NCBI GenBank assembly: GCA_947259075.1
Contig: CAMYKQ010000053.1
Span: 1 to 64,000, forward strand
Length of the DNA: 64,000 bases
DNA from: an uncultured Gammaproteobacteria bacterium
GTDB taxonomy: Bacteria > Pseudomonadota > Gammaproteobacteria > DRLM01
Direction of reading: 5' to 3'
Part shown: positions 7,133-53,535 of the stretch, one piece after another
Layout of the letters: each line of letters opens with the position of its first letter
Numbering within the stretch: position 1 is the first letter of the stretch
The notes under the pieces: model-generated
What the model was told of the DNA's origin: nothing
Seen by the model: the letters and a program-made list of their open reading frames with translations, nothing else
Databases searched by the model: none
Program-made: the position numbers and the translations under genes

Positions 7133-7348
7133 GGGCCGTCTCCTTGGCGTGTTATACGGTTTTTGCGGTGCCGCCGGGCGGGTCCGTCGCTATGTTTGCC
7201 TCTGCCCGTGCGGGCGTCGCCGCAAATTGCTTGCATCCCTCTCCGGCTTGGCTTGTCTCAGCATGGACGCCATTAACGGCAACGCATGGCCGCGAACTTA
7301 ACCCAGCCGTTCATGATAGGCAAGCGGCCGGGTGCTTGTTGGCTTCGC

Positions 7349-8209: not shown

Positions 8210-8291
8210 GGGCTGTGCTTCGCTGTGTTAAAAGAGGGGGATTGTAGGAAGCCTTGGCCGCGATGTCCATGTGTGTTGCGAAGCTAGTGCC

Positions 8292-8326
8292 TCCCGCGCA
8301 AATAAAAACGCCCCGGTCCGTGCGGG
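8292..8326 (-). terminator. Rho-independent terminator of the small lipoprotein gene
   Basis: On the minus strand a 9-bp stem ACGCCCCGG / CCGGGGCGT is followed by TTTTATTT. It lies 26 nt after the stop of the lipoprotein gene at 8352. Confidence 0.85.
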
Positions 8327-8351
8327 CCGGGGCGTCGTCGCGGCTTGGAAT

Positions 8352-8684
8352 TTAAGGCGCGACGGTTTGACGCATGCTTTCACCTTCGCGGCGCAGGCGT
8401 TCCGCCTTTTCAAGCGTCTTGGCCGCTTCAATGGCCTTTTCGCCGCGCTTGATCATTTCTTCACCCTCATCCTCCAAACGCTTGCCTTCCTTTATCATGT
8501 CCTTACCTTGGTCTTGCAGCGCCTCGCCCTTGGCGATGAGTTCATCCCCGTTTTTAATCATCAGCTCGCCTTGGGCGAGGCGCTCGGGCGTCTCCGGCAA
8601 CAGATTGGGCTCGGAGAAGATGGCGCAGGCGCTGAGGCTGAGCGCGGCGGCGGGGAGCAGTAAAAAGCGGGCATGCAATTTCAT
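8352..8684 (-). CDS. Small repetitive lipoprotein
   Basis: 110 residues with a lipoprotein signal peptide whose lipobox LSAC puts the lipidated cysteine near residue 20. The mature part is a chain of imperfect repeats of about 7-14 residues with a G-x2-(L/M)-(I/x)-x2-G spacing (GDELIAKGEALQDQG, GKDMIKEGKRLEDEG, GEEMIKRGEKAIEA), very rich in Glu and Lys. It should form a long amphipathic helix or coiled coil in the periplasm. I recognise no named family. It is transcribed alone and ends in its own terminator. Its start lies 150 nt from the divergent tpm gene. Confidence 0.8.
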   Translation of the reverse strand: MKLHARFLLLPAAALSLSACAIFSEPNLLPETPERLAQGELMIKNGDELIAKGEALQDQGKDMIKEGKRLEDEGEEMIKRGEKAIEAAKTLEKAERLRREGESMRQTVAP

Positions 8685-8834
8685 CGGTGTTTCCTCATGA
8701 CTACGGTTTGAGTTGAATGTGCATTATACCTGTGCGCTGACCCCGTCGAATGTAAAAAATTGTCTCCGTAGCGGGCCTCGCGGTTTTGCTAATATAAGCT
8801 GGCGCCATGATGGCGGCCGCAACGAGGACAGAGT

Positions 8835-9491
8835 ATGGAGAGCGAATTTTGGCACGCGCGTTGGAAAGAAGGCCGCATCGGTTTTCACCAAGATGACATC
8901 AACCCCTATCTGCGGCGGCACTGGCCCAGCATGGGTCTGGCGCCGGGCGGCGCCATCTTCGTGCCCCTGTGCGGCAAGAGCCGCGACATGCTGTGGCTGC
9001 GTGAGCAAGGACATGCCGTGCTGGGGGTGGAAATCGTGCCGCAAGCCGTGGAGGCCTTCTTCGCGGAGAACAAGCTTGGCGCCGAGGTCTCGCAACACGG
9101 AGCCTTCAGTCTGTGGCAGAGCGAAGGCATCAAAGTATTTTGCGGTGACATCTTCAAACTCACGGCCGACGATGTCAGTGAAGTCACCGGCGTCTACGAC
9201 CGCGCCTCGCTGATCGCCCTGCCGCCCGCCCTGCGCGAACACTACGCGGCGCACCTGCGTGCGATCTTGCCGGGAAAATTGAGCACGCTCTTAGTCACCA
9301 TGGATTACCCGCAAGCCGAAATGCAGGGCCCGCCCTTCGCGGTGACGCCGCAAGAGGTCGAGGCCTTGTACAAAAAATATTTTGTAATAGACGAAGTGAG
9401 TGCCGCGGACATCTTGTCCGCCGAGCCGCGCTTCAAGGAGCAAGGCCTGAGGCGTTTATTGGAAAGGGTGTATGTGCTGCGGGCGCGGTAG
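8835..9491 (+). CDS. tpm: Thiopurine S-methyltransferase (TPMT family)
   Basis: 218 residues, the bacterial TPMT length. The N-terminal MESEFWHARWKEGRIGFHQ is the family hallmark. The SAM site is in IFVPLCGKSRDMLWL (about 42-56), and the acidic VLGVEIVPQAV follows. YDRASLIALPP and the closing LRRLLERVYVLRAR also match. These soluble enzymes transfer a methyl group from SAM to sulfur, and in bacteria to selenium or tellurium compounds, giving volatile or less toxic products. GAGG lies about 8 nt before the ATG. Given the arsenic and metal genes nearby, a metalloid detoxification role is a reasonable inference. Confidence 0.93.
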   Translation: MESEFWHARWKEGRIGFHQDDINPYLRRHWPSMGLAPGGAIFVPLCGKSRDMLWLREQGHAVLGVEIVPQAVEAFFAENKLGAEVSQHGAFSLWQSEGIKVFCGDIFKLTADDVSEVTGVYDRASLIALPPALREHYAAHLRAILPGKLSTLLVTMDYPQAEMQGPPFAVTPQEVEALYKKYFVIDEVSAADILSAEPRFKEQGLRRLLERVYVLRAR

Positions 9492-9741
9492 CCTTTGTGA
9501 AATTGAAAAAGCGGTTAAGGAATGGCCGACAGCGCGCTTTGCGACCCGTTACGGCTGTTTCGGCTTCTAATGGGGGTAGGCGGGTTGTTATCGAATCCGG
9601 ATATTTATCTTTTCGTGAAATGCCATGGTTATGTCCAATACGTGGATTTAAGATTTGGGTAAAAAATCCATACCGACCGCAGATAGATTATCTTTGGTCG
9701 GTGCTAGATTGTTCTGCGTTTCAGGGTGCCAGCTTGGCTCA

Positions 9742-10092
9742 TTAATTACCAGTGTAGTTCGCGGCTAAATACTGGCCTTCCGCGGACAGAAAAACGTAAA
9801 GAGTTTGTTTTTCAGGGTCGCTGATTTTTTCATTCTTGAAAACAATAACCCATTCCAGTTGGCCGCCCAATTCCTTCTGTTCTGCCTTATGGATGGCAAC
9901 GGAAGTCCAAGAGTCGTCAATCTTTTTTCTTTGAACCAATTTGGCCACACTGCTAATCGCAATTTCTTCGGCTTTAGCTTGGGTAACGGGCTCGTGTGAA
10001 TGACCGTGACCATGGTCGTGTCCTGAGCCAGCGTGCACAGGGCTTGCCATCAGTAGAAATAGTGAAATTAATGTTGTAGTCAAGTAGCGCAT
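9742..10092 (-). CDS. Exported His-rich small protein, DUF6488-like
   Basis: 116 residues. A signal peptide (MRYLTTTLISLFLLMASPVHA) is followed at once by the metal-binding run GSGHDHGHGHSHEP. The remaining ~80 residues form an alpha/beta domain (IDDSWTSVAIHKAEQKELGG, LEWVIVFKNE, TLYVFLSAEGQYL) that resembles the DUF6488 family found beside metal transporters. The ATG at 10092 has a strong GGAGG site 5 nt upstream and is preferred to an in-frame start 7 codons earlier. It is the last gene of the leftward metal cluster, 17 nt after the tiny lipoprotein gene. A periplasmic metal chaperone or sensor role is inferred. AT-richer than the flanking genes. Confidence 0.8.
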   Translation of the reverse strand: MRYLTTTLISLFLLMASPVHAGSGHDHGHGHSHEPVTQAKAEEIAISSVAKLVQRKKIDDSWTSVAIHKAEQKELGGQLEWVIVFKNEKISDPEKQTLYVFLSAEGQYLAANYTGN

Positions 10093-10109
10093 ATATCCTC
10101 CGGATAAGT

Positions 10110-10241
10110 TCAATTGATTGAGTCATGCTGAGTGGGTTGGTGAGAATGATCTTCATCATGGCCATGTCCATGCTCGGATGAGCATGCCGATAATAGCGTT
10201 AAGCTTAAGAATGTAAATAGCATCAAAAATGACCTGCGCAT
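10110..10241 (-). CDS. Tiny histidine-rich lipoprotein (43 aa)
   Basis: A short gene that is easily missed: ATG at 10241 with AGGAG 9 nt before it, and TGA at 10110. The product begins MRRSFLMLFTFLSLTLLSAC, a complete lipoprotein signal with lipobox LSAC (Cys20). The mature part is only 24 residues, with seven His plus Asp and Glu (SSEHGHGHDEDHSHQ). Its start lies 13 nt after the HupE stop, and its stop is 17 nt before the next ATG, so translation is surely coupled within the operon. It looks like a lipid-anchored metal-binding peptide. I know of no named family. Confidence 0.75.
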   Translation of the reverse strand: MRRSFLMLFTFLSLTLLSACSSEHGHGHDEDHSHQPTQHDSIN

Positions 10242-10253
10242 TATTTATTTCTC

Positions 10254-11405
10254 CTAAAGTGAATCAATGTTTTCATGAATTGTTCTAGGCTGTGGTTCCG
10301 GCGCGGTAATTACCTTATTCTCATCCACAAGCTGATACTCGCCGTTGACTTTTAAAGTGATGGTGACGGGCGAGCGGGTGCTATTTTTCCAATACCAACC
10401 GTGTGTGCCTTCGAAAGAAGATGTTAGAGAGCCACTTGACTGGCTTTCAGTGCTCTTGCTAAAGCTCTCGAAATGGCCGGTTGTATCATCTGCAGGTTCG
10501 CCGTGGAAATCAAAGAATAGTTCCTCGCCGCCTGTTTGCCATGAATATTTAAACGTCGCGCCTTTGGCTAAAAAGAGTTTGTACTCCTTGTCGCCTCTCG
10601 CGGGTATCGTGATCTCGATGGAGTCTTTCCATTCTGTAGATTCCACATTTTCAAGTTTGGCTGCCATGGCCACAGGCTGCACAGGGGCTGCTGTGCTTGC
10701 GGCCAATTCTGCATTGGTGGTGTGCTCATAACCATGCATTTGCATGAAAAAGAGATAAATCCCCATGGCAATCAGCGCGTAGTTTGTTACCAGGCTGAAC
10801 GTCTTGAAGCCTTGGGATTTTCGCCATGCGGCAATCAGCAATAACATCAGAAATAGCGCGCTGATTTGCCCCAGCTCGATGCCAACGTTGAACGAAATAA
10901 TATTCAGTAATAGTCCATCTTCGCTTAATGGTAAGTCCTGCAGACGTGTAGATAGGCCGAACCCATGAATAAGGCCGAGTCCAACTATCATGAGCATCAT
11001 GTTAGGTGGATTGATACCCAGATGCTTGCGAAAACCATCAATATTGGCGAAGGCGATATAACACACGCTGAGCGCTATCACTGCATCGATAAGGAAGTAG
11101 TTAAGCTGGATTGCATTAAATGTGGCATAAATTAGTGTGACACTGTGCCCCAGCGTAAACGCGGTGACATATTTGGCAATGTCCCGGAACGTGGTCAAGA
11201 AAAAGATGATCCCGAACACAAACGCCAGATGGTCGTAGCCGGAAAGCATATGCGTGGCACCTAGCCACATATACTGCATGTTGCCCCCATTGATGATCGC
11301 CTGTTTTTCCTCTTCAGACATCCCATGAGCAAAGGCAAGATTTGAAAAAAGCACGAACAGAGCTAGCCCGGTTATGAGGAAAAATAGATTTCGATTTTCT
11401 GGCAT
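10254..11405 (-). CDS. HupE/UreJ-family metal permease fused to a periplasmic beta domain
   Basis: 383 residues. After a signal sequence ending FAHG (about 24-27), residues ~45-225 form the HupE/UreJ membrane region with its histidine motifs: THMLSGYDHLAF, FTLGHSVTL and GLIHGFGLSTRL. HupE proteins are thought to import nickel, cobalt or other divalent metals. After a linker rich in Ala and Pro (about 245-260), residues ~265-365 form an extra soluble domain with YSWQTGGEELFFDFHGEP and GTHGWYWKN, resembling the separate transmembrane-anchor proteins often encoded near HupE. The ATG at 11405 is chosen because the signal peptide starts there. Middle gene of the His-rich cluster. Confidence 0.85.
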   Translation of the reverse strand: MPENRNLFFLITGLALFVLFSNLAFAHGMSEEEKQAIINGGNMQYMWLGATHMLSGYDHLAFVFGIIFFLTTFRDIAKYVTAFTLGHSVTLIYATFNAIQLNYFLIDAVIALSVCYIAFANIDGFRKHLGINPPNMMLMIVGLGLIHGFGLSTRLQDLPLSEDGLLLNIISFNVGIELGQISALFLMLLLIAAWRKSQGFKTFSLVTNYALIAMGIYLFFMQMHGYEHTTNAELAASTAAPVQPVAMAAKLENVESTEWKDSIEITIPARGDKEYKLFLAKGATFKYSWQTGGEELFFDFHGEPADDTTGHFESFSKSTESQSSGSLTSSFEGTHGWYWKNSTRSPVTITLKVNGEYQLVDENKVITAPEPQPRTIHENIDSL

Positions 11406-11446
11406 GATTGGATCATTATAAAGCAGTGCGCTTGTTTTGCTGCTGA

Positions 11447-11755
11447 TCACAGGCGGCCCCCTTTTTTCACATCTGTTACCCAATAAATACCGTGACCTGT
11501 GAGATTGGCTTTGCTCTCACAAAGCCTCGCCAACACCGCATCCACATCTGCGTCATCAAGTAAAATATCTGTCCGTATGCGTGGAATGTAACCCACCACA
11601 TCATCGTGTGCTGATAAAAAAGGATCGTTTTCCACTTCAGTTCCGTGGCCTTCGACATGGATGAAGGTAAAGCCTGGAACCTGATCGATCGTGCGTAATA
11701 GATTAGCCAATTGTTGCTGAATATTTGTATGAGCAATGAGCGTTAATACTTTCAT
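11447..11755 (-). CDS. PII-like small protein, DUF3240 family
   Basis: 102 residues with the short alpha/beta pattern of PII-like proteins (MKVLTLIAHTNIQQQLANLL, a middle HVEGHGTEVENDPFLSAHD, then IRTDILLDDADVDAVLARL and GHGIYWVTDV). DUF3240 proteins of this type are usually encoded beside CzcCBA or other heavy-metal exporters and are presumed cytoplasmic sensors or modulators. The histidines in the T-loop-like central region could bind metal. GGAGG lies 8 nt before the ATG. It precedes hupE by 42 nt in the same direction. Confidence 0.78.
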   Translation of the reverse strand: MKVLTLIAHTNIQQQLANLLRTIDQVPGFTFIHVEGHGTEVENDPFLSAHDDVVGYIPRIRTDILLDDADVDAVLARLCESKANLTGHGIYWVTDVKKGGRL

Positions 11756-11904
11756 GCGTAGTCCTCCGCAATGAATTGAAGATTTATGGGCGTCAGTACG
11801 ATGCCAGGAATTGGCTGCGTTACTGCTTTTGAATTTATGGTGAATTACCCTGAACCAGCTCGAATCTAATTCGAGTAAGCACCGGTGAATTGACGGTGAA
11901 TCGC

Positions 11905-12324
11905 TTAAAGCGGAGGGGCGCGGAGAGATGGAAATAGGTGGAATCGCCTAGTAAGACTGGCATTGCCACGATAAGAAAGGAATCTTTCTCTGCATAACCC
12001 TGATGTGAGTAGGAACAGCACGAAGGTCAGCAACGCCAACGTTAATACATTGACCGATGCCTGTTTTAATATGCAGTCCGGGCATGCATCAATCACAGAT
12101 GTCACCTGATCATGGTGGTCCTGATGGGAGCTGTCAAAGGAAAGGTGAGTCTCATTCAGGTGTGAGTGATGATTTGGATCATCGATAGAATAATGGTTTT
12201 GATGTGAGTTGTGATCAAAGTCGTGGACATGCAGAGTCACGCCTTGGGCAGACAATATCAGCAATGAAAGCAATATCGTCCAGGCAAGCAATAGCCTCTT
12301 GTTAGTTTTACGGAAAAAATTCAT
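11905..12324 (-). CDS. Histidine-rich membrane protein with CPDC motif
   Basis: 139 residues from the ATG at 12324 (an in-frame TTG at 12354 is less likely). A transmembrane segment near 11-28 is followed by a periplasmic loop packed with His, Asp and Asn (LHVHDFDHNSHQNHY, DDPNHHSHLNETHL). The pair C-P-D-C is near residue 79, a second hydrophobic segment spans about 88-108, and the tail is basic. This architecture resembles small CzcI-like proteins near zinc or cobalt efflux genes. No function is established. It would head the leftward metal operon, but a 149-nt gap separates it from the DUF3240 gene, so it may have its own promoter. Confidence 0.7.
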   Translation of the reverse strand: MNFFRKTNKRLLLAWTILLSLLILSAQGVTLHVHDFDHNSHQNHYSIDDPNHHSHLNETHLSFDSSHQDHHDQVTSVIDACPDCILKQASVNVLTLALLTFVLFLLTSGLCRERFLSYRGNASLTRRFHLFPSLRAPPL

Positions 12325-12577
12325 GGCGGCTAGTCTAGCAACGTTGAGGCCCAAGAGTAAATATCGGATATTCCATGGATACCTTTACATCAATGAGACA
12401 TAGGCGTGTCATTTAATGTGCGTAAAACTCTCAGGAAGAATTATCAATTGATGTAGGAAAATGGCTGCAATGGGATAGCCGGAGTCGTTGATTGCAGGTC
12501 GCCCGAACTACTGCGGCTGGCTCTGAACTGTCTTTCATCCATCCCATTCAGGGATGAGATCGGCGTACGCCGCCATC

Positions 12578-13351
12578 CTATTTTCCCCCGTGACTCGCAT
12601 AAATCTCCCGCAGCTTCGGCACCGCTAAACCGGTCTCATCCGCGTGCCCCAAGGCGCGTTGCAGACGCGGCAATGCGGTGCGGCCGAGGCAGAGGTGGGC
12701 GGGGTCGCCGGCGAAGGCTTCGAGCATGCCTTCGATGAGGCGGTCGCGGGGAAGGTCGCGATCGGTGAGCCATTCTTGAATGCTGATGATTTCCTCGGCG
12801 ATTTCGCGGGCGAGGCCTTGATGGTCACGCCATAGTTCGCTGACATTGCCGCCGGTGACGAGGCCGGCGATGTTGATCGTGAGGATGTAGACGTTTTTGC
12901 GCACCAGTTCGAAGAGCAGTTCATCTTCGCTGGCGAGGACGCGGGCGGGGATGGCGACGGTGTTCAATGAGGCGCTGAGCGCGGCGGCGTGGGGGCCGTA
13001 GGCCGGTGAGGGCAGCAGCACTTTGGGTTCGGCGCCTTTTTTCTTTTCGAACCACACCGAGATCACGCTGGGTCCGGTGATGCCGTGCGCGCGCCAGTCG
13101 CGTGGCAGCAGTTCGTTTTGCAGCAGGCACAGGCGCTCTCGCCACGGCGTGGGGATGATGTCCAAACAGGGGTGCAGATCTTTTTCGGCCACGGCCAGGA
13201 GCACGAGTTCTGGTTGTGGTATGCGCGCGGCTTCTTGCTGTATGTCCATGGCGCGGGTGATGGGGTAGACGGGGTGGCCGCCGCGGAGAAAACCGCGGGC
13301 GAAGACGGTGCCTAATTCACCCATGCCAATGATGACGACGGGATTGTGCAT
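12578..13351 (-). CDS. NAD(P)-binding ketopantoate reductase-like protein
   Basis: 257 residues. The N-terminal Rossmann fold has the dinucleotide motif IGMGELGTVFARGF (residues ~8-21), and the PELVLLAVAEKDL strand is followed by a helical C-terminal half. The layout recalls ketopantoate reductase (PanE/ApbA) and related 6-phosphogluconate-dehydrogenase-like proteins. The usual catalytic Lys/Asn/Glu set is not clear to me, so the reaction is unassigned. It lies downstream of the B12 operon in the same direction, but with a 320-nt gap that contains a repeat, so it is probably transcribed separately. Confidence 0.65.
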   Translation of the reverse strand: MHNPVVIIGMGELGTVFARGFLRGGHPVYPITRAMDIQQEAARIPQPELVLLAVAEKDLHPCLDIIPTPWRERLCLLQNELLPRDWRAHGITGPSVISVWFEKKKGAEPKVLLPSPAYGPHAAALSASLNTVAIPARVLASEDELLFELVRKNVYILTINIAGLVTGGNVSELWRDHQGLAREIAEEIISIQEWLTDRDLPRDRLIEGMLEAFAGDPAHLCLGRTALPRLQRALGHADETGLAVPKLREIYASHGGK

Positions 13352-13671
13352 GTCGGGTGTTCCTTTAGTGAAAAGTGTTCGTTAGTCGTGCTTGCCTTCC
13401 ATTTCGCCAGCGAGCGGATATGTGATTCATGTTGGTTAGCGTGCGGGGTGATGAAATGAGACGGTGCTTGTTTGATTCCCTCACCCCGGCCCTCTCCCGG
13501 AGGGAGAGGGGGTTTTCGTGCGGGTTGAGTTGTTCCGTGTTCGCCTTGAGTCTTTCGCTGTTTCGTCGCTTGTTTTGGCCGATGGCCGTAATGAAAAATA
13601 TAGTAGCTGGAGCAAATATGCCTGCGATTGCGAATTGATAACGGCGATGTATCAAGAGCGAAAACCCGCGC
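13352..13671. other. Intergenic region with a palindromic repeat
   Basis: 320 nt between the adenosyltransferase gene and the ketopantoate reductase-like gene. Apart from a GC-rich palindrome at 13490-13511 I see no gene. Short open frames here are produced by the repeat and have no ribosome site. Confidence 0.6.
13484..13511. repeat. Intergenic palindromic repeat (CCCTCTCC / GGAGAGGG type)
   Basis: CACCCCGGCCCTCTCCCGG is followed by AGGGAGAGGG, an 8-9 bp hairpin. The same core recurs at 54542-54569. This is a common type of dispersed intergenic palindrome in proteobacterial genomes. Confidence 0.7.
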
Positions 13672-14220
13672 TCAATTCCAGTTGCGCTGCCACAGGACTT
13701 CGTGTCCGCCGACTTCGCGGTTGAGCACGCGGGCGAGGACGAAGAGCAAATCCGAGAGGCGGTTTAAATAAATGAGGGCGTGGCCGTTGACGTCGGCGTG
13801 GCGCCGCAAAGTGACTACGCGGCGTTCGGCGCGGCGGCACACGGCGCGGGCGAGATGGCAGGCCGCCGCCGCGGGGCCGCCGCCGGGCAGGATGAATTCT
13901 TTGAGGTGCGGCAAGTCGGCGTTGTGCTGATCGATGGCGCGTTCCAGGCGTTCAGCATCAGCGGGGGTAATCATGATATGCCCGGGAATGCAGAGCTCGC
14001 CGCCGACGTTGAAGAGGTCGTGTTGAATACGGGTGAGGTGGGCGTGCACGGTGCCGGGGAGTTTGTGCGCCAGCAGCACGCCGATGGCGCTGTTGAGTTC
14101 ATCCACGGCGCCGAAGGCTTCAACGCGGGCGTCGTCTTTGCTGACGCGGCTGCCGTCGCCGAGGCCGGTGCCGCCTTCGTCGCCGGTGCGGGTATAAATT
14201 TTTGAAAGCCGGTTTCCCAT
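13672..14220 (-). CDS. Cob(I)alamin adenosyltransferase, PduO type
   Basis: 182 residues. The N-terminal signature RLSKIYTRTGDEGGTGLGDG (residues 4-23) is the ATP-binding strand and loop of PduO-type corrinoid adenosyltransferases. VEAFGAVDELNSAIG and the C-terminal NRLSDLLFVLARVLN are also diagnostic. The enzyme transfers the adenosyl group of ATP to cob(I)alamin, making coenzyme B12 in the cytoplasm. A start at 14220 fits family alignments (MGNRLSKIYTRTGD); an ATG at 14235 would overlap the tonB stop. As the third gene after the cobalamin riboswitch, it is likely expressed when B12 is scarce, together with the uptake genes. Confidence 0.92.
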   Translation of the reverse strand: MGNRLSKIYTRTGDEGGTGLGDGSRVSKDDARVEAFGAVDELNSAIGVLLAHKLPGTVHAHLTRIQHDLFNVGGELCIPGHIMITPADAERLERAIDQHNADLPHLKEFILPGGGPAAAACHLARAVCRRAERRVVTLRRHADVNGHALIYLNRLSDLLFVLARVLNREVGGHEVLWQRNWN

Positions 14221-14227
14221 GCGTGCC

Positions 14228-14959
14228 TCAGCCATCGGTTAAGTAGTATTCGATAGGCAGCACCATATCAAAATGACCGTTTTCCAGCCAGCCCGCCAGG
14301 CCGTCGAGTCGGGGGAGCTGGCGCAATACGCGCAGGGCGTCACGGTCGATGATGCCGTAACCGGAAGAACTGATGAGGTGGATGCCGCTGAGGCGGCCGT
14401 CGTGTTCCACCCGCAGACCGACGGCGACGTTGCCTTCCCAGCCGCGCCGTTTTGCTAGCAGCGGATAGCTGAAATAGGGTGCTACGGCGTCGCGCAGCCG
14501 CGTCAATAGATAGCGTTGCACGCTGGCGGGGTCGTGAGCGGCGGCGGTGTGTTCTGCTTCGCTTGGCGCGGCGGCGTCCATGCCCGCCGCCGTGGCTGCG
14601 ATTGGATTGATGGCGTGCGGCGGCGCGGCGGTGATGGCCGTTGCGGCGGCGGGTGTTTGCGCCGTGTTGTTTACCGCGATGGGCAGCGGTGCAATCGAGG
14701 CGGCGTCCGGCGCGTCCGGCGCGGGCGTGGCTGGGTGCGATGCGGATGCGGCGGTGTTTATCGCAGTGCCCGGGTTTGAGACGGGCGCAGTGGCGGGTGC
14801 GACGGCGGCGCCGGCCGCCGCTGCACCGCCGGAATTCAAGGTCAGCAGCAGCGGCCTCAACCCGGCAGGGTGAGGCGCCGTGCCGTAGTTCCAATACGCG
14901 AGCAGTCCCGCATGCAGCGCGAGGGAGAGCGCGAGAAAGCGGGCCGCGTTCGCGGTCAC
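14228..14959 (-). CDS. TonB protein dedicated to cobalamin uptake
   Basis: 243 residues. A GTG start at 14959 overlaps the btuB stop (GTGA). One N-terminal transmembrane helix (ARFLALSLALHAGLLAYW, about 7-24) is followed by a long Ala/Pro/Thr-rich periplasmic spacer (30-150) and a TonB C-terminal domain (SYPLLAKRRGWEGNVAVGL through DRDALRVLRQLP, near 170-225). TonB couples the inner-membrane proton gradient to outer-membrane receptors. Its place between btuB and the adenosyltransferase makes it a receptor-specific TonB. No ExbB or ExbD is nearby, so it must borrow those. A second, unrelated tonB lies at 32215-33090. Confidence 0.88.
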   Translation of the reverse strand: MTANAARFLALSLALHAGLLAYWNYGTAPHPAGLRPLLLTLNSGGAAAAGAAVAPATAPVSNPGTAINTAASASHPATPAPDAPDAASIAPLPIAVNNTAQTPAAATAITAAPPHAINPIAATAAGMDAAAPSEAEHTAAAHDPASVQRYLLTRLRDAVAPYFSYPLLAKRRGWEGNVAVGLRVEHDGRLSGIHLISSSGYGIIDRDALRVLRQLPRLDGLAGWLENGHFDMVLPIEYYLTDG

Positions 14960-16773
14960 GAGGCCGGGCTGTAGCGCGCCTCGATGAACAAGGCGCGTCC
15001 CATGGTGTTGAAGCCGTCGGCCAGTTCGTAATGCTTGTTGAAGACGTTTTCGATCTTGCCGATCAAGCGCCAGTCTGGTTGCAGACGCCATTGCGCCGTG
15101 AGGTTCACCAGACCGTAACCGGCATTGTCGACGCTGGAGAAGGCGGAATCCTTGCGCTGGCTTTGGGTGATGAGGTCGGCGCCCAGTTGATACGCGCCGT
15201 GCTGGTACAGCAGCGAGGTGGTGAGGCTGCGTTTGGCGCGGCGCGGCAGGGCTTCGCCGCTGGTTTCATTTTCCGGGTCTTGCACGATGCCTTCCACGCG
15301 CATGCTGAAGGGGTGGAGGTTGATATTGTACGTGACTTCCACGCCGCGGATGCGCGCCTTGTCGACGTTTTGATTGGCGCCGGGGAGGGGGCCGAGAAAG
15401 CCGTCAGGATCGGTGAACTCGATGAGGTCTTCGATGCGGTTGTCGAAGAGGCTGAACGCGATGTCTTGACGCTCACTGATGCGATGACGCGCGCCCAGTT
15501 CGAGATTGCGCGAGGTTTCGGGGTCGAGCGCGGGATTGCCGCCGAAGCCGTAGCGGTCGGTCGCGTCCGGCGCGCGGAAGGCGGTGCCCGCCGCGGCGGT
15601 GAAGCGGGTGCGTTCGCTCAATTGATAGCCGTATTCCACGTCCCAAGTGGTGTGGCCGCCGAAGCTGTCGTGATCGGTGTAACGCCCGGCCAATAACAGA
15701 TGATGATCGCCGAAGTGAATATCATCTTGCGCGTAAACCGCCTGCACGTCCGTGGTTTCGTCAAAGCCGCTGCCGAAGATGCTGGAGCTGACATCTTCGC
15801 GCGAGAGCATCACGCCGGCGGTGAGCAATTGCCGCTCGTCGAGCTGCATATCGTTTTGCCAGTCGAGTTGATTACGGCGGGTGTGGGCGAAATCGTTGCT
15901 TTGGTTTTGGTCGATCTCATCGACGCTTTGGCTGAGTTGCAAGCTGGTGGCCCAGGTGTCGCGCGGCGTGGCCTTGAGTTTGAGCGAGGTGGCGCTGTTA
16001 TTGAAATCCTGATCCAGCGGGGTGAGAAAGAAATCGAAATATTCGGTGTTGCCGCGGGTCTGCCAGCGGCGCAGTTCCACATCCAGCGGCCCGAAGTCGC
16101 GGCCGGCGTAAAGATTGAAACTAAGATTGTCGTAACCGCGTTCTTCGCTGGCGTCTTGGCGGGTGGGGAAACCATCGGTGCTGAGCGCGGCGGCGTCGAT
16201 ACCGGCGCGCGTCACGCCGTCGCCGAGGTGCACGCCGAGGCTTTGGCTGTGGCTGCCGTAGCGGCCGGCGCCGAAGGCGAAGTATCCGCGCGTGCCCTTG
16301 CCGCCTTGACGGGTGATGATGTTGATGACGCCGCCGATGGCCTCGGAACCGTAGAGGCTGGAGCGCGGGCCCTTCACCACTTCGATGCGCTCGATCATAT
16401 CGGGACTGATGTTTTGCAGCGCCGCGCCGCCGATGCTGCCGGGATTGATCTTGACGCCGTCGATCATCACCAGGGTGTGATTGCTCTCGGTGCCACGCAT
16501 GAAGATCGAGGTGGCTTGGCCGGGGCCGCCGTTGCGGCCGATGTCCAAACCCGCGTGCAGGCGCAACAAGTCCGCCGCGTCGCTGGCGCTGCTGCGCTCG
16601 ATGGTTTCGCGGTCGATGAGAATGACCGGCGCCAGACTTTGATCGGCGATTTGCGCGGTGCGGGTGGCGGTGACGACGATGGCCGCGGCGCTATCGGCTT
16701 GCGCGGCGCAAGCCGCGCCCTGAACGGTGACGCACAACACGGAAATGACGGTGATGTTTTTAGATAATGACAT
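14956..16773 (-). CDS. btuB: TonB-dependent outer-membrane cobalamin receptor BtuB
   Basis: 605 residues, close to E. coli BtuB (614). A signal peptide ends around AQA (residue 24), followed by a TonB box-like AAIVVTATRT. The plug domain (about 35-150) holds GGPGQATSIFMRGTESNHT, IDGVKINPG and VVKGPRSSLYGSEAIGGVIN, all typical of BtuB; the 22-strand barrel fills the rest. It moves vitamin B12 across the outer membrane. The ATG at 16773 is used. The reading frame stays open upstream through the riboswitch, but that part is leader RNA. The protein does not end in the usual aromatic residue (RYSPAS). First gene of the B12 operon. Confidence 0.93.
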   Translation of the reverse strand: MSLSKNITVISVLCVTVQGAACAAQADSAAAIVVTATRTAQIADQSLAPVILIDRETIERSSASDAADLLRLHAGLDIGRNGGPGQATSIFMRGTESNHTLVMIDGVKINPGSIGGAALQNISPDMIERIEVVKGPRSSLYGSEAIGGVINIITRQGGKGTRGYFAFGAGRYGSHSQSLGVHLGDGVTRAGIDAAALSTDGFPTRQDASEERGYDNLSFNLYAGRDFGPLDVELRRWQTRGNTEYFDFFLTPLDQDFNNSATSLKLKATPRDTWATSLQLSQSVDEIDQNQSNDFAHTRRNQLDWQNDMQLDERQLLTAGVMLSREDVSSSIFGSGFDETTDVQAVYAQDDIHFGDHHLLLAGRYTDHDSFGGHTTWDVEYGYQLSERTRFTAAAGTAFRAPDATDRYGFGGNPALDPETSRNLELGARHRISERQDIAFSLFDNRIEDLIEFTDPDGFLGPLPGANQNVDKARIRGVEVTYNINLHPFSMRVEGIVQDPENETSGEALPRRAKRSLTTSLLYQHGAYQLGADLITQSQRKDSAFSSVDNAGYGLVNLTAQWRLQPDWRLIGKIENVFNKHYELADGFNTMGRALFIEARYSPAS

Positions 16774-16892
16774 GCGAGCTGCTTCCTGTTTTTCCCGCGC
16801 GCACCCGGCGGGTAATTTTATGGTGGCAGTGAAGGAGGCAGGCCGCGACGGATTGAAAGGCATCCGCCAGCATCGCCCGCCGCGACACCGTG

Positions 16893-17096
16893 CTTCGTTA
16901 ACCGCAGGCCGGTCTCCGGGCTTGTGAGTGGATGGCTCCTGACGAATCGCCTTCCCGCGCCGTGCGCAGTGGCGTATTGACCCGTCGTGACTCACTTACC
17001 GTTGCGGGGGCAGCGCCGGACTTGCTCGTTTGAGGCGAGCGCACCGGCTTCCCGTTTCATCCCGCGCCATGACTGGCGCAAGACACCTGCTGGTTT
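16893..17096 (-). promoter_or_regulatory. Cobalamin (adenosylcobalamin) riboswitch
   Basis: Read on the minus strand, the order of conserved blocks is complete: CAGGTGTC near 17089, GATGAAACGGGAAGCCGGTG near 17055, CCGGCGCTGCCCCCGCAACG near 17008, GCCACTGCGC near 16970, GCGGGAAGGCG near 16957, and the B12 box AGCCCGGAGACCGGCCTGCG near 16920-16902. It lies about 120 nt before btuB. High adenosylcobalamin is expected to shut down the btuB-tonB-adenosyltransferase operon, probably by hiding the ribosome site, since no clear terminator with a T-run follows. Confidence 0.96.
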
Positions 17097-37661: not shown

Positions 37662-38222
37662 TCAGCGCGGGCCGCGCATGCGCGTCAAGCGCCAAGCGAT
37701 GAGCGCGGCGGCGAACAGGCTGAGGCCGTGGGGCGTGGGCAGTTTATTGCCGAAGGCGTCGTCGACGCGTGTTTTGAGCAGGGCGAATGCGCCGCCGCCG
37801 TTGCTGAGCGCGTCGAAACTGAGGGTGGCCAAGAGCACGTCCGCGGATTGCAGCAGGTCGAGTTCGATCTCGCTGAGCAGGGACACGGCGGCGATATTGA
37901 CGGCGCCGGGGGATGATAAAAATTCGCTGAAGGTTTCGAAGGCGGCGGGGTCGGGGTCGCCGAGCTCGCCGCTGAAGCTGACGCCGTTGAGTGAAAACAG
38001 CGCGCCGTCATAGCCGATGTCGATGTCGTAAGCGCCGACCGAGGGCGCAAAGCCCGCGCCCAATCCAGTGACGCGCACTTGAACGTTGAGCACGTCGCCC
38101 GCGGCGACTGTTGCCGCGTCAGGTGTCAAATAAGCGAACACGGGCGCCGCCGCGGTGATCTGAGGAAAATGAATCAGAACGAGGAAGCCGAGCAGCGGCA
38201 GCAGCGGGTGTGAACGAGGCAT
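37662..38222 (-). CDS. Exported cohesin-like protein with PEP-CTERM-like tail
   Basis: 186 residues. A signal peptide (ends near TAAA, about 25) is followed by a single beta-sandwich domain at 30-150: TVAAGDVLNVQVRVTGLG, VGAYDIDIGYDGALFSLNGV and LLATLSFDALSNG. This pattern (strand, Asp-rich turn, V-x-A-F/Y-D-x-x-x-x-Y-D) is that of cohesin-like domains seen in PEP-CTERM proteins. The C-terminus LPTPHGLSLFAAALIAW then RLTRMRG is a PEP-CTERM layout with Pro-Thr-Pro in place of Pro-Glu-Pro. It is encoded two genes downstream of a dockerin-bearing protein, so binding between the two is an obvious hypothesis. Confidence 0.72.
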   Translation of the reverse strand: MPRSHPLLPLLGFLVLIHFPQITAAAPVFAYLTPDAATVAAGDVLNVQVRVTGLGAGFAPSVGAYDIDIGYDGALFSLNGVSFSGELGDPDPAAFETFSEFLSSPGAVNIAAVSLLSEIELDLLQSADVLLATLSFDALSNGGGAFALLKTRVDDAFGNKLPTPHGLSLFAAALIAWRLTRMRGPR

Positions 38223-38254
38223 GGCGTGATGACCCTTGGTTTAGGTGATGAAGT

Positions 38255-38944
38255 TTAAGTGATGAGGTGAGGCAGATTCAGTTCCGTCCGTGGACCTTGG
38301 CGCGCGGTGATTTTTAAAATAATTAAGGCCAGGCCGCCGCCGATGAGCAGCAAGAGCGTGGCGGGTTGCGGCAGCACGGCCACGGAGATGTCATCGCTGA
38401 GAAAACGGACATTGCCGGTGAAGGGATTGCCGATGTTGAAGGCGTCGAAGTCGACACTGGTGCCGAAGAACCAGCCGGGCAAGAGCGGGCTGAGTCCGTC
38501 GATGATCTGCGTGACGGAATCAGACGCCAGCGGATCGGCGGCTGGAAAATTAAAATCCATGGCGGCGAAGACCGCGGGACCAAGATCGGCGTTTTCGACC
38601 ATGCCCACTTTTATGAAGCCGGGAAAGGTGACGTCGAATACATTGGTTTCATGTTCACCGGTGCTGCCGGTGCGCGAGATAAAATACGAGACGATGTCGA
38701 AGCCGACGTCGAAGGTCACGCTCTTGCGTGGCGCCAAGGTCGTGTCGTCGCTGGCGTCACCTAATTTGAGGACGGTGGATTTCTCGCCATTTTTACCCTT
38801 GACGATGAGGTCGGAGAGCACGAAGGTGTCCGTGTCGGAGTTGTTTCTCACTTCGATGATCTCACCGGCATGGGCGGGCGGAGGCACGGCCATAATAACC
38901 ATGATGGCGGCGAAGAAGATGCTGATTGCGGCTGATGCTTTCAT
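38255..38944 (-). CDS. Exported PEP-CTERM-like surface protein, unknown function
   Basis: 229 residues. The signal peptide is cut near AHA (about 26). The mature chain is beta-rich: IIEVRNNSDTDTFVLSDLIV and an APRKSVTFDVGFDIVSYFIS strand pair, with no enzyme motif. Near the end VLPQPATLLLLIGGGLALII is followed by basic residues (KITARQGPR), a PEP-CTERM layout with Pro-Gln-Pro, plus an unusually long 15-20 residue tail. It lies between the cohesin-like and the dockerin-bearing genes, with gaps of 32 and 71 nt, all on one strand. Likely part of the same surface assembly; its own role is unknown. Confidence 0.7.
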   Translation of the reverse strand: MKASAAISIFFAAIMVIMAVPPPAHAGEIIEVRNNSDTDTFVLSDLIVKGKNGEKSTVLKLGDASDDTTLAPRKSVTFDVGFDIVSYFISRTGSTGEHETNVFDVTFPGFIKVGMVENADLGPAVFAAMDFNFPAADPLASDSVTQIIDGLSPLLPGWFFGTSVDFDAFNIGNPFTGNVRFLSDDISVAVLPQPATLLLLIGGGLALIILKITARQGPRTELNLPHLIT

Positions 38945-39015
38945 GTTGTCACTCCTGTATTGCGGGGGCGAGGTTTTGCCCCCGGGTCAAGTGCGTGGGC
39001 GGCGGCGATCTATTG

Positions 39016-40884
39016 CTAGGGTGCGCACCGCGGTTTGTCACATTTGAGGGTGCAATAACGCGCATCGTTGACGGTGATTAAACCGTCGCCGTCGGCATCG
39101 AGCGGGTCCGCCGGGCCGAAGGCGCGCGCATTGCGTTGCGCGAAGATGGAGCGGATGTCGCCGCGGTCCACCCTGTCGTCGTTATTGATGTCGCATATTT
39201 GCGCCACGAAGGTCGAGCCGTCTTCGGGGTCGAAGGCGCTGGGCAGGCCGTTGCCGTCCACCGCGACGATGCCTATCACCTCGCCGTCCTGGAGTTGCAA
39301 TTGCACGCTGGTCTGCGTCGTGCCGCCGAGAAATTCAACGCTGGGGGCGGCGGGGTCATCAAATAATTCAGCGCTGCGGTAGATGTGGTACTCCGCGGCC
39401 GCCGCTACGCCGGACCAAACCAGTGTCATTAAATCACGGTTCTTGGCCGCGATGCGCAGATCGTCCACCACCGCTGGCGGCAGCGTGAGCGGCGGGCCGA
39501 TGATGACTTGCACGGGGACAATCCGGCTTTCTCCCGGGGCGAGCACGCCGCTGATTTGCGGCGGGCTGATTTGAATTTCCGTGGTCGCGGCGGAAGGGGC
39601 GAGCGTGACTTCAAAGGACTGGGCGCTGGTGCCGGGGTTGGTGATGATTAAGTTGTAATTATGCGTCGCGGCGGGTTCGTCATCGGCGAAGAGCAGGCTG
39701 ACGAGTTCAATGCCGTACGTGCCGGGTCCGGTCGCGCTGGCGTGATCGGCTTGCACCAATTTGTCGTGCGGCACATAAATGGAATTGGGTATCTCGCTCA
39801 GCGGCGTGCCCGCCACATCGCCGGTGACGCGGCCCAGGCCGTCACTCACGCCGAGGCGCAGGGCGAAGGTTTGGCTCTCGATCTTCGCGCCGTTTTTTTT
39901 ATGGGACTCCAATTTCTTCCAGCCGCTGAAGCCGGGTGTGCCGGTGGCGGTGAAGGCGAAGTCGGTTGGCGTGCTGGTGACGCGCAGATGCGTGGTGCGC
40001 ACCCAAATGTCGGCGTCGTGAAAACTGGTGGGTAAAACATAGCCGGCGTGACCCGTGCCGCTGAGATAGCTCTTGCTGTCAGTGAAGGATTCCCACGGGT
40101 CGAAGAAATGCCATTTACCGCCGTACCACACATTGGCCGCGGCGGTTTGCACGTCATAGCTGCCGTCGGCGAAGGAGGGTAATACGTTTTTCTCGCGCAC
40201 GGGGAAGCCCAGTTCCCGTACCAGCGAGGTGAAGAACAGCGCGGTTTCGATGCACATGAATTGATTGCCCGCGCGCGGTTTGCCGATGTCGATGGTGCCG
40301 TCGTCGGCGAGCTTGCAGATGTCGGCATCGTCTTCAAAATCCGAGGGCTGGCCTTTGGGGTAGGTGAGGTCTTCGACGAATTTGTAAATATTGTTGATGA
40401 TGGCCTCCGCGTCGGCGGGCATTTTGTCGGCGTAGTTGCCGCCGCCGGCTTTAGGCCTTGGACCATCTTTGTGACCGGGCGCGCCGGGCAGCGGCGAGGG
40501 GCTTTGCGCCGCCTCGTAGCCGTTCTTCGGACCTTGGTAACGCGCGGCCTTGTAGGCGATGCGCGCGCGGCAGGCGCTGTCGTGGTTGGAGGAGGCGCCG
40601 CCGCGTTCGTAATAATCGCGCTGCGCCGCATCGGCGTTTTCTTTTTTGTATTCTTTGCTGTCGCGTTCTTTTTTGCCGGCCTCGTAGGCGCTGGCGGGCA
40701 CGCTGGCCTCGCCATTATTGTTGAAGCCGTTGCTCGCCAATCCGGCTGGATCATCGCCCGCGGAATAGAGTGGCAGCAACAGGAGCGTGGCGGCGAAGGT
40801 GATGAGGACGGCGGAGCGGCCCCGCGTGCGATGAGATGAGGCCGCGCGGCTGCTTTGGGCGGCATTCACTCCTTGCCTGTGCAT
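39016..40884 (-). CDS. Exported transglutaminase-like, FN3 and dockerin protein
   Basis: 622 residues. After a long basic lead and a signal helix (about 25-40), a low-complexity region runs to ~150. A transglutaminase-like domain spans about 160-290: Cys in QFMCIETALFFTSLVRELGF and Asp in GKWHFFDPW. The catalytic His expected before Val-Trp/Tyr is missing (TAAANVWYGGKW), so activity is doubtful. Two beta domains follow (320-480), then an FN3-like domain (about 485-555: LTLVWSGVAAAAEYHIYRS). The C-terminus is a type I dockerin with two Ca loops, DINNDDRVDRGDI (565-577) and DADGDGLITVNDA (596-608). First gene of the surface trio. Confidence 0.8.
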   Translation of the reverse strand: MHRQGVNAAQSSRAASSHRTRGRSAVLITFAATLLLLPLYSAGDDPAGLASNGFNNNGEASVPASAYEAGKKERDSKEYKKENADAAQRDYYERGGASSNHDSACRARIAYKAARYQGPKNGYEAAQSPSPLPGAPGHKDGPRPKAGGGNYADKMPADAEAIINNIYKFVEDLTYPKGQPSDFEDDADICKLADDGTIDIGKPRAGNQFMCIETALFFTSLVRELGFPVREKNVLPSFADGSYDVQTAAANVWYGGKWHFFDPWESFTDSKSYLSGTGHAGYVLPTSFHDADIWVRTTHLRVTSTPTDFAFTATGTPGFSGWKKLESHKKNGAKIESQTFALRLGVSDGLGRVTGDVAGTPLSEIPNSIYVPHDKLVQADHASATGPGTYGIELVSLLFADDEPAATHNYNLIITNPGTSAQSFEVTLAPSAATTEIQISPPQISGVLAPGESRIVPVQVIIGPPLTLPPAVVDDLRIAAKNRDLMTLVWSGVAAAAEYHIYRSAELFDDPAAPSVEFLGGTTQTSVQLQLQDGEVIGIVAVDGNGLPSAFDPEDGSTFVAQICDINNDDRVDRGDIRSIFAQRNARAFGPADPLDADGDGLITVNDARYCTLKCDKPRCAP

Positions 40885-52199: not shown

Positions 52200-52536
52200 C
52201 CGTGTCGGCTGTATGGGTTGTGGGCAGGCGCGCTAGGTTAGCACAGCGCCCGCGCCGTGGCGGCAGTGACAACAAGGATAAAGCGTGTCGGGATTATTTA
52301 CAGGCTGGCGTGACGGCCGCTTGCGGGATCATTAAAGCCGTTTAAAAAAAGCAGCTTAACGAGTTGGCAAGCATGTTGCTATTACCCTGTCGCGGATGTA
52401 TCGCGCCGGTTGCCCGGTCTAGGGTAACCACTAAAGCCTTCCACGGATGTACCTCAAGGATGTATCTCTCTATGTAATGGGCGACGGACCCCCTGCTTTG
52501 CGCGTTGTTTGGTTTCACAAAGCATTGGGATAATTC
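52200..52536. other. Divergent promoter region between bioA and the PEP-CTERM gene
   Basis: 337 nt without an ORF. It should carry promoters for both flanking genes. Three copies of GGATGTAYC, at 52394, 52445 and 52458, lie upstream of the PEP-CTERM gene and could be binding sites. I see no BirA-type operator or RNA element. Confidence 0.5.
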
Positions 52537-53535
52537 ATGATCAAGTCGCTGTTATTTTCCACCGCCATTTTGCTGGGCGTGAGCGGCACCGCCGCCGCGG
52601 CGCCGCTGTTATTGGAAGGCAATTTCATCCGCGTCACCATCGGTGATGACGGCACCTTGGGTAATGGCTACGGGCCGGAACCGGGTTTGCTGTACGACGC
52701 CACGGGTTCACGCAATTTCACCGGCGATGATTTTCTCAAGCCGGGTTTTCCCTGGGAATTCTTCACGGTGAAGGCCAACGAGGTCGGCGTCACTGGCAAC
52801 AATAATGACACTGATTTTTGGATGCGCGATTTCCGCTTCAACTTGATTGAGGATTTGAGCGGCCAGCAGGGTTTCGACCGGCATGTGCGTTGGCTCGGCA
52901 CCAGTGAATCGATGCAGTTGAGTAACGATTTCTTTTTCAATGACGACGATCAGTCGATTCAAGTCCGCACGACCATCACCTCATTATTGGATCTCAGCGG
53001 TCTGCGTTTCGCGCGCAGCATCGACCCCGATCAAGACGTCGAAACGTACGGCGATTATGAAACCCGCAACGGCCGTGGTTACGACGCCAATGGTGATGGC
53101 GATTTCGGCGGCGCGGGTGACGTGGCGCCGCAAAACTGGGTGCATGCGCAAGGCGCGCGCAGCGGTTTGAGTGTGGGGCTGTACTCGGATTCACCCTATG
53201 CGCACGACACCGGCGTTTCCTACGATTGGCTGCTCGATCCGGATTTCTTTCTCGCCGGCATCGATGAGGGCGATGGCGATAATGCCTTGGGCATAGGCTT
53301 TAATCTCGGGGATCTGGCGCGAGGGCAGTCGGTTTCATTTATGTATGCCTACGTCTTGAGCGCCAGCCTGGGCGGCGCGCAATTCCCCGTGCTTGGCGCG
53401 CAGCGCGAGGATGAACCGGCGGAGAGTTCTTTGTCCGTCAGCAGCGTCCCCGAGCCGGGCACGCTGATCTTGATGAGTTTGGGGGTCGCGGCTTTGGGGG
53501 TTTTCACCGGGCGCAGGGCGCGCAATAAAACATAA
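52537..53535 (+). CDS. PEP-CTERM sorted exported protein
   Basis: 332 residues. The signal peptide (MIKSLLFSTAILLGVSGTAAA) is followed by a beta-rich domain of unknown type with many Asp and Asn (DDDQSIQVRTTITS, DANGDGDFGGAGD near 188-200, a Ca-binding-like Asp motif). The C-terminus SSVPEPGTLILMSLGVAALG then TGRRARNK is a textbook PEP-CTERM sorting signal, so it should be handed to an exosortase and displayed on the surface or in the extracellular matrix. Monocistronic; a terminator follows at 53567. Confidence 0.88.
   Translation: MIKSLLFSTAILLGVSGTAAAAPLLLEGNFIRVTIGDDGTLGNGYGPEPGLLYDATGSRNFTGDDFLKPGFPWEFFTVKANEVGVTGNNNDTDFWMRDFRFNLIEDLSGQQGFDRHVRWLGTSESMQLSNDFFFNDDDQSIQVRTTITSLLDLSGLRFARSIDPDQDVETYGDYETRNGRGYDANGDGDFGGAGDVAPQNWVHAQGARSGLSVGLYSDSPYAHDTGVSYDWLLDPDFFLAGIDEGDGDNALGIGFNLGDLARGQSVSFMYAYVLSASLGGAQFPVLGAQREDEPAESSLSVSSVPEPGTLILMSLGVAALGVFTGRRARNKT

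Follow-up and report, generated by a model that had tools for sequence, protein, structure and literature searches.

A neighbouring dockerin–cohesin gene pair with a PEP-CTERM-like sorting tail: a putative cargo-display module in a gammaproteobacterium and other bacteria

ScaE of Ruminococcus flavefaciens is a sortase-anchored scaffoldin with a single cohesin (PMC5301203). The 2006 description of the PEP-CTERM/exosortase system makes no mention of cohesin (PMC1569441). No paper joining PEP-CTERM with either dockerin or cohesin was found among the open-access papers searched. Non-cellulosomal cohesins and dockerins reportedly occur in all three domains of life, to go by the title of Peer et al. 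2009 (FEMS Microbiol Lett). PEP-CTERM proteins are, to our knowledge, numerous in environmental bacteria, most of them without an assigned role.

The locus described here lies in a gammaproteobacterial stretch of 64,000 nucleotides, analysed as a whole (the window), and places a single-cohesin protein with a PEP-CTERM-like tail close to a protein ending in a dockerin. It quite probably encodes an exosortase-sorted one-cohesin receptor and a cognate dockerin-tagged, swappable cargo, held together by Ca-dependent binding.

Layout of the locus

Three ORFs on the minus strand (Table 1) are separated by gaps of 71 bp (P0001–P0002) and 32 bp (P0002–P0003). A preliminary description of this DNA had proposed three exported genes in one direction, encoding a dockerin protein, a protein with a PEP-CTERM-like tail and a cohesin with a tail of the same kind, and the ORFs and predicted structures confirm this arrangement. 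P0002 and P0003 have clear N-terminal signal peptides, and P0001 begins, as judged by eye, with an n-region that is long and basic, ahead of a hydrophobic stretch; P0001 has no anchor of its own. The middle protein, P0002, ends in LPQPATLLLLIGGGLALIILK, falls short of the PF07589 cut-off of 20.7 bits, shows a weak lamin-tail-domain match and is private to the locus, having no relative among the ORFs of other loci. Scans for promoters and terminators yielded nothing usable. A TGGCAC box is located at about 40981, before the operon, but a sigma-54 promoter was rejected there, as a proper −12 element is absent and the patterns occur across the window about as often as chance predicts.

Table 1 Features of the dockerin–cohesin locus, with positions in the window
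Feature	Position	Strand	Basis
P0001, exported 622-aa cargo protein: weak transglutaminase-like region, Ig/FN3-like region, C-terminal dockerin	39016..40884	-	ORF; sub-threshold Pfam matches for the cargo part
Dockerin module of P0001, residues 562–622	39019..39201	-	Profile of 48 relatives; AlphaFold2 pLDDT 91.2; Foldseek and VIA-align
First Ca-binding loop DINNDDRVDRGD, residues 565–576	39157..39192	-	Sequence; loop positions 1 and 12 are D, with conservation of at least 90% in A7
Second Ca-binding loop DADGDGLITVND, residues 596–607	39064..39099	-	Sequence; strongly conserved in A7
P0002, exported 229-aa protein, PEP-CTERM-like tail (LPQP)	38255..38944	-	PF07589 12.8 bits, LTD 13.1 bits, both sub-threshold
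P0003, exported 186-aa single-cohesin protein, proposed receptor	37662..38222	-	PF00963 above cut-off; profile of 38 relatives; AlphaFold2 pLDDT 90.3
Cohesin domain of P0003, residues 26–161	37740..38147	-	VIA-align Z 14.6 to 6kgc_A
PEP-CTERM-like sorting tail of P0003 (LPTP, hydrophobic helix, basic end), residues 161–186	37665..37742	-	Model; alignment with relatives

The cohesin protein and its sorting tail

P0003 scores above the curated cut-off of Pfam PF00963 (25.5 against 24.1 bits), and its AlphaFold2 model superimposes on 6kgc_A with an rmsd of 2.1 Å over 126 residues. The best 43 structural matches to the model are all cohesins, with streptococcal antigen I/II domains among the lower ones, and the cohesin fold suggested earlier for this product is thus predicted with high confidence. 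Pfam Cohesin was found in 22 of the 38 P0003-family neighbours (single-protein scans, E <= 0.01); a phmmer search of the PDB with P0003 alone returned nothing significant. The cohesin residue Asp66 is conserved, occurring in 32 of 38 sequences. By sequence and predicted fold P0003 is a cohesin, for which dockerin binding is inferred.

The protein ends in LPTPHGLSLFAAALIAWRLTRMR, and the modelled tail helix spans residues 166–182. No PF07589 match was obtained, and the protein is termed PEP-CTERM-like because the curated cut-off is not met. The tail aligns with those of relatives that carry IPEP and VPEP; relatives also tolerate the variants VPIP, VPLP and VPVP. Two further variants, IPTP (in one other protein) and VPAP, occur in PEP-CTERM proteins of the same genome that exceed the Pfam cut-off. 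Single-protein scans (E <= 0.01) detected Pfam PEP-CTERM in 26 of 38 family members.

Statements on the host's own genome are based on targeted searches, not on the whole genome. The host encodes exosortase A (XrtA; 366 bits, cut-off 208) with an EpsI domain, situated among XrtA glycosyltransferases, of which there are two, and 27 other PEP-CTERM proteins above cut-off. The cohesin profile had no matches at about 29 other own-genome PEP-CTERM loci. Three cohesin loci are present, with one cohesin match each, and the other cohesins all lie beside RHS-type dockerin proteins. Exosortase occurs in 12 of the 13 gammaproteobacterial dockerin genomes, against 127 of 369 (34%) in the class (Fisher p 1.8e-5); it was not detectable in 5 of 29 genomes tested, several of which are MAGs.

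The dockerin and its cargo

The tail of P0001 contains two canonical 12-residue Ca loops and four cysteines (564, 611, 615 and 620). Foldseek ranks 1–27 for its model are dockerins, as are 29 of 29 VIA-align rows (best Z 7.8), and the two loops, with paired helices in the dockerin arrangement, satisfy the fold and Ca-loop criterion for this module. The earlier call of a dockerin with two Ca loops therefore stands, the model resembling only dockerins among credible matches. The tail is below the curated cut-off of Pfam Dockerin_1 (PF00404): a fragment of it scored 8.5 bits (about eight leading residues of the query were inexact), the first relative tested reached 15.5 bits against a cut-off of 22.9, and weak matches appear in 8 of 9 tails. 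P0001 alone, compared with the PDB by phmmer, gave nothing significant. The possibility of many such dockerins in the same genome was ruled out, just one being found; two dockerins of another type lie inside RHS proteins.

The calls made for the remainder of P0001 were less secure. Its transglutaminase match (14.3 bits) and its Ig/FN3-like matches are all sub-threshold in Pfam, the catalytic His of a transglutaminase is not evident by eye, and no glycoside hydrolase match was found on the protein. Among 369 genomes of the class, none holds a relative of the cargo part; the transglutaminase-like part is counted as lineage-specific cargo and not as a defining component of the system.

Conservation of the gene pair and turnover of the cargo

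Of 13 gammaproteobacterial genomes that carry a P0001-type dockerin, 12 have a cohesin ORF adjoining the dockerin ORF on the same strand, as do 26 of 46 further loci from a scan of 84,980 species queried with four dockerins (38 of 59 surveyed loci overall). The cohesin profile was trained on the class set alone, so the 46 scan loci, from Nitrospirota, Cyanobacteria, Acidobacteriota, Verrucomicrobia and other lineages, are independent of the training. The neighbouring cohesin genes mostly encode a sorting-type tail. The 20 scan loci lacking a recognised cohesin neighbour include some cut by contig ends and some from one multi-copy genome. At L120, L122 and L129 the dockerin's neighbour is a non-cohesin PEP-CTERM protein, and in G130 a cohesin–PEP gene stands without a recognised dockerin next to it. 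The co-occurrence of the dockerin and the cohesin profile at genome level (Fisher 1e-19) is inflated because the profile was trained on dockerin neighbours, and pair conservation rests instead on the independent loci and the Pfam matches. Plasmid carriage of the pair was rejected, no match to a representative dockerin or cohesin being found among 72,556 plasmids.

The conserved unit is the dockerin–cohesin pair, not the trio. The three genes had been expected to co-occur in other genomes; the pair is adjacent across phyla, but the middle gene has no relative at other loci. Nor is the system, present as stated in a gammaproteobacterium, peculiar to its host, being widespread. A genus mate carries the same pair with an S8 protease as cargo, beside unrelated genes.

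The passenger changes nearly every time: 60 dockerin proteins fall into 20 cargo clusters, and among the cargos are proteases, giant repeat proteins and RHS-type proteins. In most cases the cohesin gene lies next to whichever end of its partner encodes the dockerin: it is downstream of C-terminal dockerins in 21 cases and upstream of them in 3 (p 3e-4), and upstream of N-terminal dockerins in 15 cases and downstream in none, although for many giant genes the downstream side is beyond the locus (L123 was put into the N-terminal group by hand). Dockerin and cohesin distances are correlated (r 0.47 overall, r 0.39 where the two loci have unrelated cargo; 0 of 5000 permutations), neither value being corrected for host phylogeny.

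Proposed mechanism and alternatives

Computation thus provides both folds, the host exosortase, adjacency on the same strand in many lineages, turnover of the cargo and domain covariation. In the mechanism proposed, P0003 and P0001 would be exported through the Sec pathway by their N-terminal signal peptides, the PEP-CTERM-like tail of P0003 would be processed by XrtA, and the processed cohesin protein would thereby be directed to the cell envelope or into its matrix of exopolysaccharide, where the anchorless cargo may be kept through Ca-dependent dockerin–cohesin binding. Binding, processing of the degenerate LPTP tail, anchoring, final location and cargo function are all inferred. The preliminary reading of an anchored cohesin onto which the dockerin protein docks is to this extent supported, the binding itself being an inference. 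Across bacteria, the receptor-plus-plug pair appears to be coupled to unrelated cargos, so that the dockerin and neighbouring cohesin gene would act as an exchangeable display cassette. On balance, and with only modest confidence, this can be extended to a cross-phylum display system of outer-membrane bacteria, in which exosortase-sorted one-cohesin receptors match dockerin-tagged exported cargos 1:1 and spread as a cassette of cohesin gene and dockerin, attached at either end to new cargo genes.

The same binding pair could instead serve the matrix, exosortase processing freeing the cohesin protein into exopolysaccharide and dockerin cargos being caught in the matrix of the biofilm or floc, with no cell anchor. 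This is tentatively retained as a real possibility: PEP-CTERM genes accompany EPS loci (PMC1569441), the position of the host exosortase among XrtA glycosyltransferases is consistent with it, and an Aquincola PEP-CTERM protein moves exopolysaccharide from soluble to bound (PMC9850573), but one cohesin per receptor offers no obvious cross-linking and there is no direct evidence on the location of either protein. It is unlikely that the receptor has decayed in this genome, PEP having become PTP (PQP in the middle gene), which would leave the proteins merely secreted and the pair a soluble complex; the PF07589 results for P0003 and P0002 would fit such decay, but P0003 retains its hydrophobic helix and basic end, and neither the IPTP and VPAP motifs of above-cut-off proteins in the same genome nor the variants tolerated by relatives favour it.

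Two further readings dispense with the interaction. The cohesin-like protein might have a structural or adhesive role in the matrix, bind no dockerin and be adjacent only through a shared regulon, and the antigen I/II matches indicate that the fold is not limited to dockerin binders; this is distinctly unlikely, given that the neighbour stays a dockerin while the rest of the dockerin protein changes, that the cohesin gene lies against the end encoding the dockerin and that the distances covary even with unrelated cargos. That the dockerin merely caps the end of the cargo, stabilised by Ca, or merely serves its self-association is highly improbable, since this leaves the cohesin neighbour in 38 of 59 loci and the domain covariation unexplained, even if a terminus could gain stability from the two canonical Ca loops and the four conserved Cys.

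On the receptor-and-cargo reading, one conserved PEP-CTERM family gains a definite, testable role as the socket for a partner plug, the binding being inferred; if the cross-phylum reading is true, that role is a concrete molecular one, a docking receptor. Recurrence across many phyla with a changing passenger is what one would expect if a widespread plug-and-socket system held exported proteins on the cell surface or in its matrix. Cohesin–dockerin pairing would extend well beyond cellulosomes, to outer-membrane bacteria with diverse cargos. The cultured members Hahella sp. HN01 and Pseudorhodoferax aquiterrae permit direct testing, and the pairs are new candidate protein-coupling parts.

Comparison with known systems

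Cohesin and dockerin folds are shared with the clostridial type I and II cellulosomes (for example, 6kgc, 1ohz and 2y3n), whereas the present locus is without a tandem-cohesin scaffoldin and without glycoside-hydrolase cargo; the host genome does not meet the cellulosome criterion of a multi-cohesin scaffoldin with dockerin-bearing plant-wall enzymes. The planctosome of freshwater Planctomycetes is likewise a proposed non-cellulosomal cohesin–dockerin complex for exported proteins, and it uses a lamin-tail domain, to which P0002 has a weak match; its anchor is such a domain on a 2,210-aa protein, and the accessible part of its description contains no exosortase signal or conserved gene pair (PMC6461901). 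Likeness to the PEP-CTERM/exosortase system (PMC1569441) lies in the XrtA and 27 PEP-CTERM proteins of the host and in the tails of this kind that most cohesins of the family carry. With ScaE, the locus shares a single cohesin per receptor, a C-terminal sorting signal for a dedicated membrane transpeptidase and, by inference for the present locus, dockerin proteins held at the surface (PMC5301203). In its Gram-positive wall, ScaE depends on sortase and LPXTG, and it receives the X-dockerin scaffoldins of a cellulosome (PMC5301203), whereas the present locus, in which no scaffoldin hierarchy was seen, has a PEP-CTERM-type tail, an exosortase, an outer-membrane host and one neighbouring, non-cellulolytic cargo.

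Layout of the locus

The genes for P0001 (the dockerin-ended cargo protein), P0002 (a middle protein) and P0003 (a single-cohesin protein, the proposed receptor) lie head to tail, spaced by 71 and 32 bp, in a genome of 3.1 Mb and 65 contigs. The trio is flanked on one side by a gshA–gshB–apbE group and on the other by an RND efflux operon on the opposite strand, identified by translated sequence. An ordinary signal peptide is present at the N-terminus of both P0002 and P0003; P0001 starts with a long basic n-region followed by a hydrophobic stretch. Another of the window's PEP-CTERM genes has upstream of it a sigma-54-type site with one mismatch (TGGCAAGCATGTTGCT), a kind of site that does not exceed chance frequency across the window.

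Coordinates of genes and sites in the window and in other surveyed loci
Feature	Position	Strand	Length
P0001 ORF	40884–39016	minus	622 aa
P0002 ORF	38944–38255	minus	229 aa
P0003 ORF	38222–37662	minus	186 aa
Sigma-54-type site, window	52365–52380
PEP-CTERM gene, window	52537–53535
L041, RHS dockerin/cohesin locus (contig C11)	3469–4986 and 5866–10248
L042, RHS dockerin/cohesin locus (contig C11)	6838–7647 and 9114–15992
L089, dockerin/cohesin genes	6828–8669, 8760–9404, 9617–16993
L120, non-cohesin PEP-CTERM gene	6242–6979
L122, non-cohesin PEP-CTERM gene	3539–4276
L129, non-cohesin PEP-CTERM gene	8078–8908

Identification of the cohesin and the dockerin

The cohesin-like fold that the preliminary description had read by eye in P0003 is borne out by profile and model alike. 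Pfam Cohesin passes narrowly (25.5 bits against a cut-off of 24.1), and the AlphaFold2 model (pLDDT 90.3, from an alignment of 38 relatives) retrieves cohesins in 50 of 50 Foldseek matches among those listed and in all of VIA-align rows 1–43, superposing on 6kgc_A with Z 14.6 and a root-mean-square deviation of 2.1 Å over 126 residues.

The C-terminal dockerin of P0001, which Pfam Dockerin_1 does not recognise, is supported by two canonical Ca loops and by a model of the tail (pLDDT 91.2) for which Foldseek ranks 1–27 are dockerins, with E-values that are weak for a chain this short, and VIA-align returns dockerins in 29 of 29 rows. A profile of 48 dockerin tails matches solved dockerins by sequence (2y3n_B, 6.4e-6; 1ohz_B, 1.8e-4), and also other EF-hand proteins. 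For the transglutaminase and Ig/FN3 domains ascribed to the same protein, matches stay below threshold; in the transglutaminase-like part a Cys and an Asp are visible, and no convincing catalytic His was seen.

Conservation of the pair

Searched with a three-sequence profile, 13 of 369 gammaproteobacterial genomes contain this dockerin. Twelve of the 13 have, adjacent to the dockerin gene and on the same strand, a gene for an exported cohesin-like protein (173–235 aa) that nearly always ends in a sorting-type tail. Three of the 13 genomes were profile seeds; among the remaining ten, nine have the cohesin neighbour. No other ORF separates the cohesin gene from the dockerin gene, the one exception being the window, where P0002 stands between them. 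Pfam Cohesin by itself independently marked four of these neighbours in genome scans, and matches 22 of 38 collected neighbours when applied to single proteins. The suggested co-occurrence thus holds for the dockerin–cohesin pair but not for the trio, P0002 having no relative in any surveyed dockerin locus.

A dockerin scan of 84,980 species yielded 48 loci (46 non-duplicate), of which 26 have a neighbouring cohesin according to a profile trained on the gammaproteobacterial set only, and 20 have none that it recognised. The pairs span Gammaproteobacteria including Burkholderiales, Alphaproteobacteria, Nitrospirota, Deferrisomatales, Acidobacteriota, Verrucomicrobia and Cyanobacteria. The cohesin profile has zero matches in about 29 other PEP-CTERM loci of the window's own genome, and one genome (G130) has a cohesin-PEP gene with no dockerin recognised. 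At L120, L122 and L129, from Rhodocyclaceae, Thauera and one further genome, the gene that follows the dockerin gene encodes a different PEP-CTERM protein, not a cohesin; these proteins have a FEQRF motif in common and are perhaps another partner fold.

Other arrangements were also observed. The window's own genome has three cohesins, all beside its three dockerins, the window locus included; on contig C11, two RHS/YD-repeat proteins have an interior dockerin, and 1–3 kb downstream of each lies a gene for an exported cohesin that lacks a PEP-CTERM tail; L064 in genome G027 resembles this arrangement. At L089 a single cohesin gene sits between C-terminal-dockerin and N-terminal-dockerin genes, as if serving both. 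Dockerins of a second subfamily, which end in GPSGL (L181, L182, L184, L187 and L099), adjoin PEP-CTERM-tailed proteins to which the cohesin profile gives weak matches, their fold unconfirmed; at L184, two small PEP-CTERM-tailed genes follow one such dockerin gene.

Exchange of cargo

The cargo part of P0001, outside its dockerin, has no relative among the 369 gammaproteobacterial genomes, and 60 dockerin proteins fall into 20 cargo clusters by single linkage. In the genus mate, a gammaproteobacterial MAG (L114), a dockerin 62% identical to that of P0001 ends an S8-protease protein, with the cohesin gene 23 bp after it and unrelated genes around. Without correction for host descent, the cohesin gene lies downstream for 21 of the 24 C-terminal dockerins (p = 3e-4), dockerin and cohesin distances are correlated (r = 0.47, 0 of 5,000 permutations; r = 0.39 for unrelated cargos only), and the cohesin nearest to a given one is usually partnered by a dockerin of the same subtype (0.74 against 0.52; 153 of 10,000 shuffles). 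For N-terminal dockerins, likewise uncorrected, the cohesin gene is upstream in 15 of 15, the downstream side often lying outside view; L123 was reassigned by hand in these positional counts. The placement of cohesin genes next to the end that encodes the dockerin suggests, by inference, that cohesin gene and dockerin move as one cassette when they join new cargo genes.

Sorting tails and exosortase

The single exosortase of the window's own genome is an XrtA that includes an EpsI domain; two XrtA-system glycosyltransferases flank it. In that genome 27 PEP-CTERM matches exceed the cut-off. The PEP-CTERM-like tails first proposed for P0002 and P0003 carry degenerate motifs (LPQP and LPTP, respectively), and Pfam accepts neither; the P0003 tail nevertheless retains its hydrophobic helix in the model and can be aligned with the tails of relatives, which carry IPEP and VPEP. 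Given these features and an IPTP tail above the cut-off in another protein of the genome, processing of P0003 is likely, though not shown. Exosortases occur in 12 of the 13 genomes with this dockerin versus 127 of all 369 (Fisher p = 1.8e-5); across phyla, one was detected in 24 of 29 genomes tested and none in the other five.

Proposed mechanism and relation to known systems

On the reading that we favour, the cohesin protein would be exported, then trimmed and sorted by the exosortase; the anchorless cargo would be exported separately, and its dockerin would plug into the cohesin in Ca2+. Both the outer membrane and the exopolysaccharide matrix are possible final locations of the pair, and we do not choose between them.

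Established precedents are cohesin–dockerin pairing and the anchoring of single cohesins by sortase (ScaE; PMC5301203); dockerins and exosortases have both been noted in archaeal methanotroph genomes, with no pairing model (PMC5244752). Among the open-access papers searched, none combines PEP-CTERM with either dockerin or cohesin. A non-cellulosomal assembly, the planctosome, has previously been proposed (PMC6461901); its proposed anchoring is by a lamin-tail domain, and P0002 here likewise has a lamin-tail-domain match, at a sub-threshold 13.1 bits.
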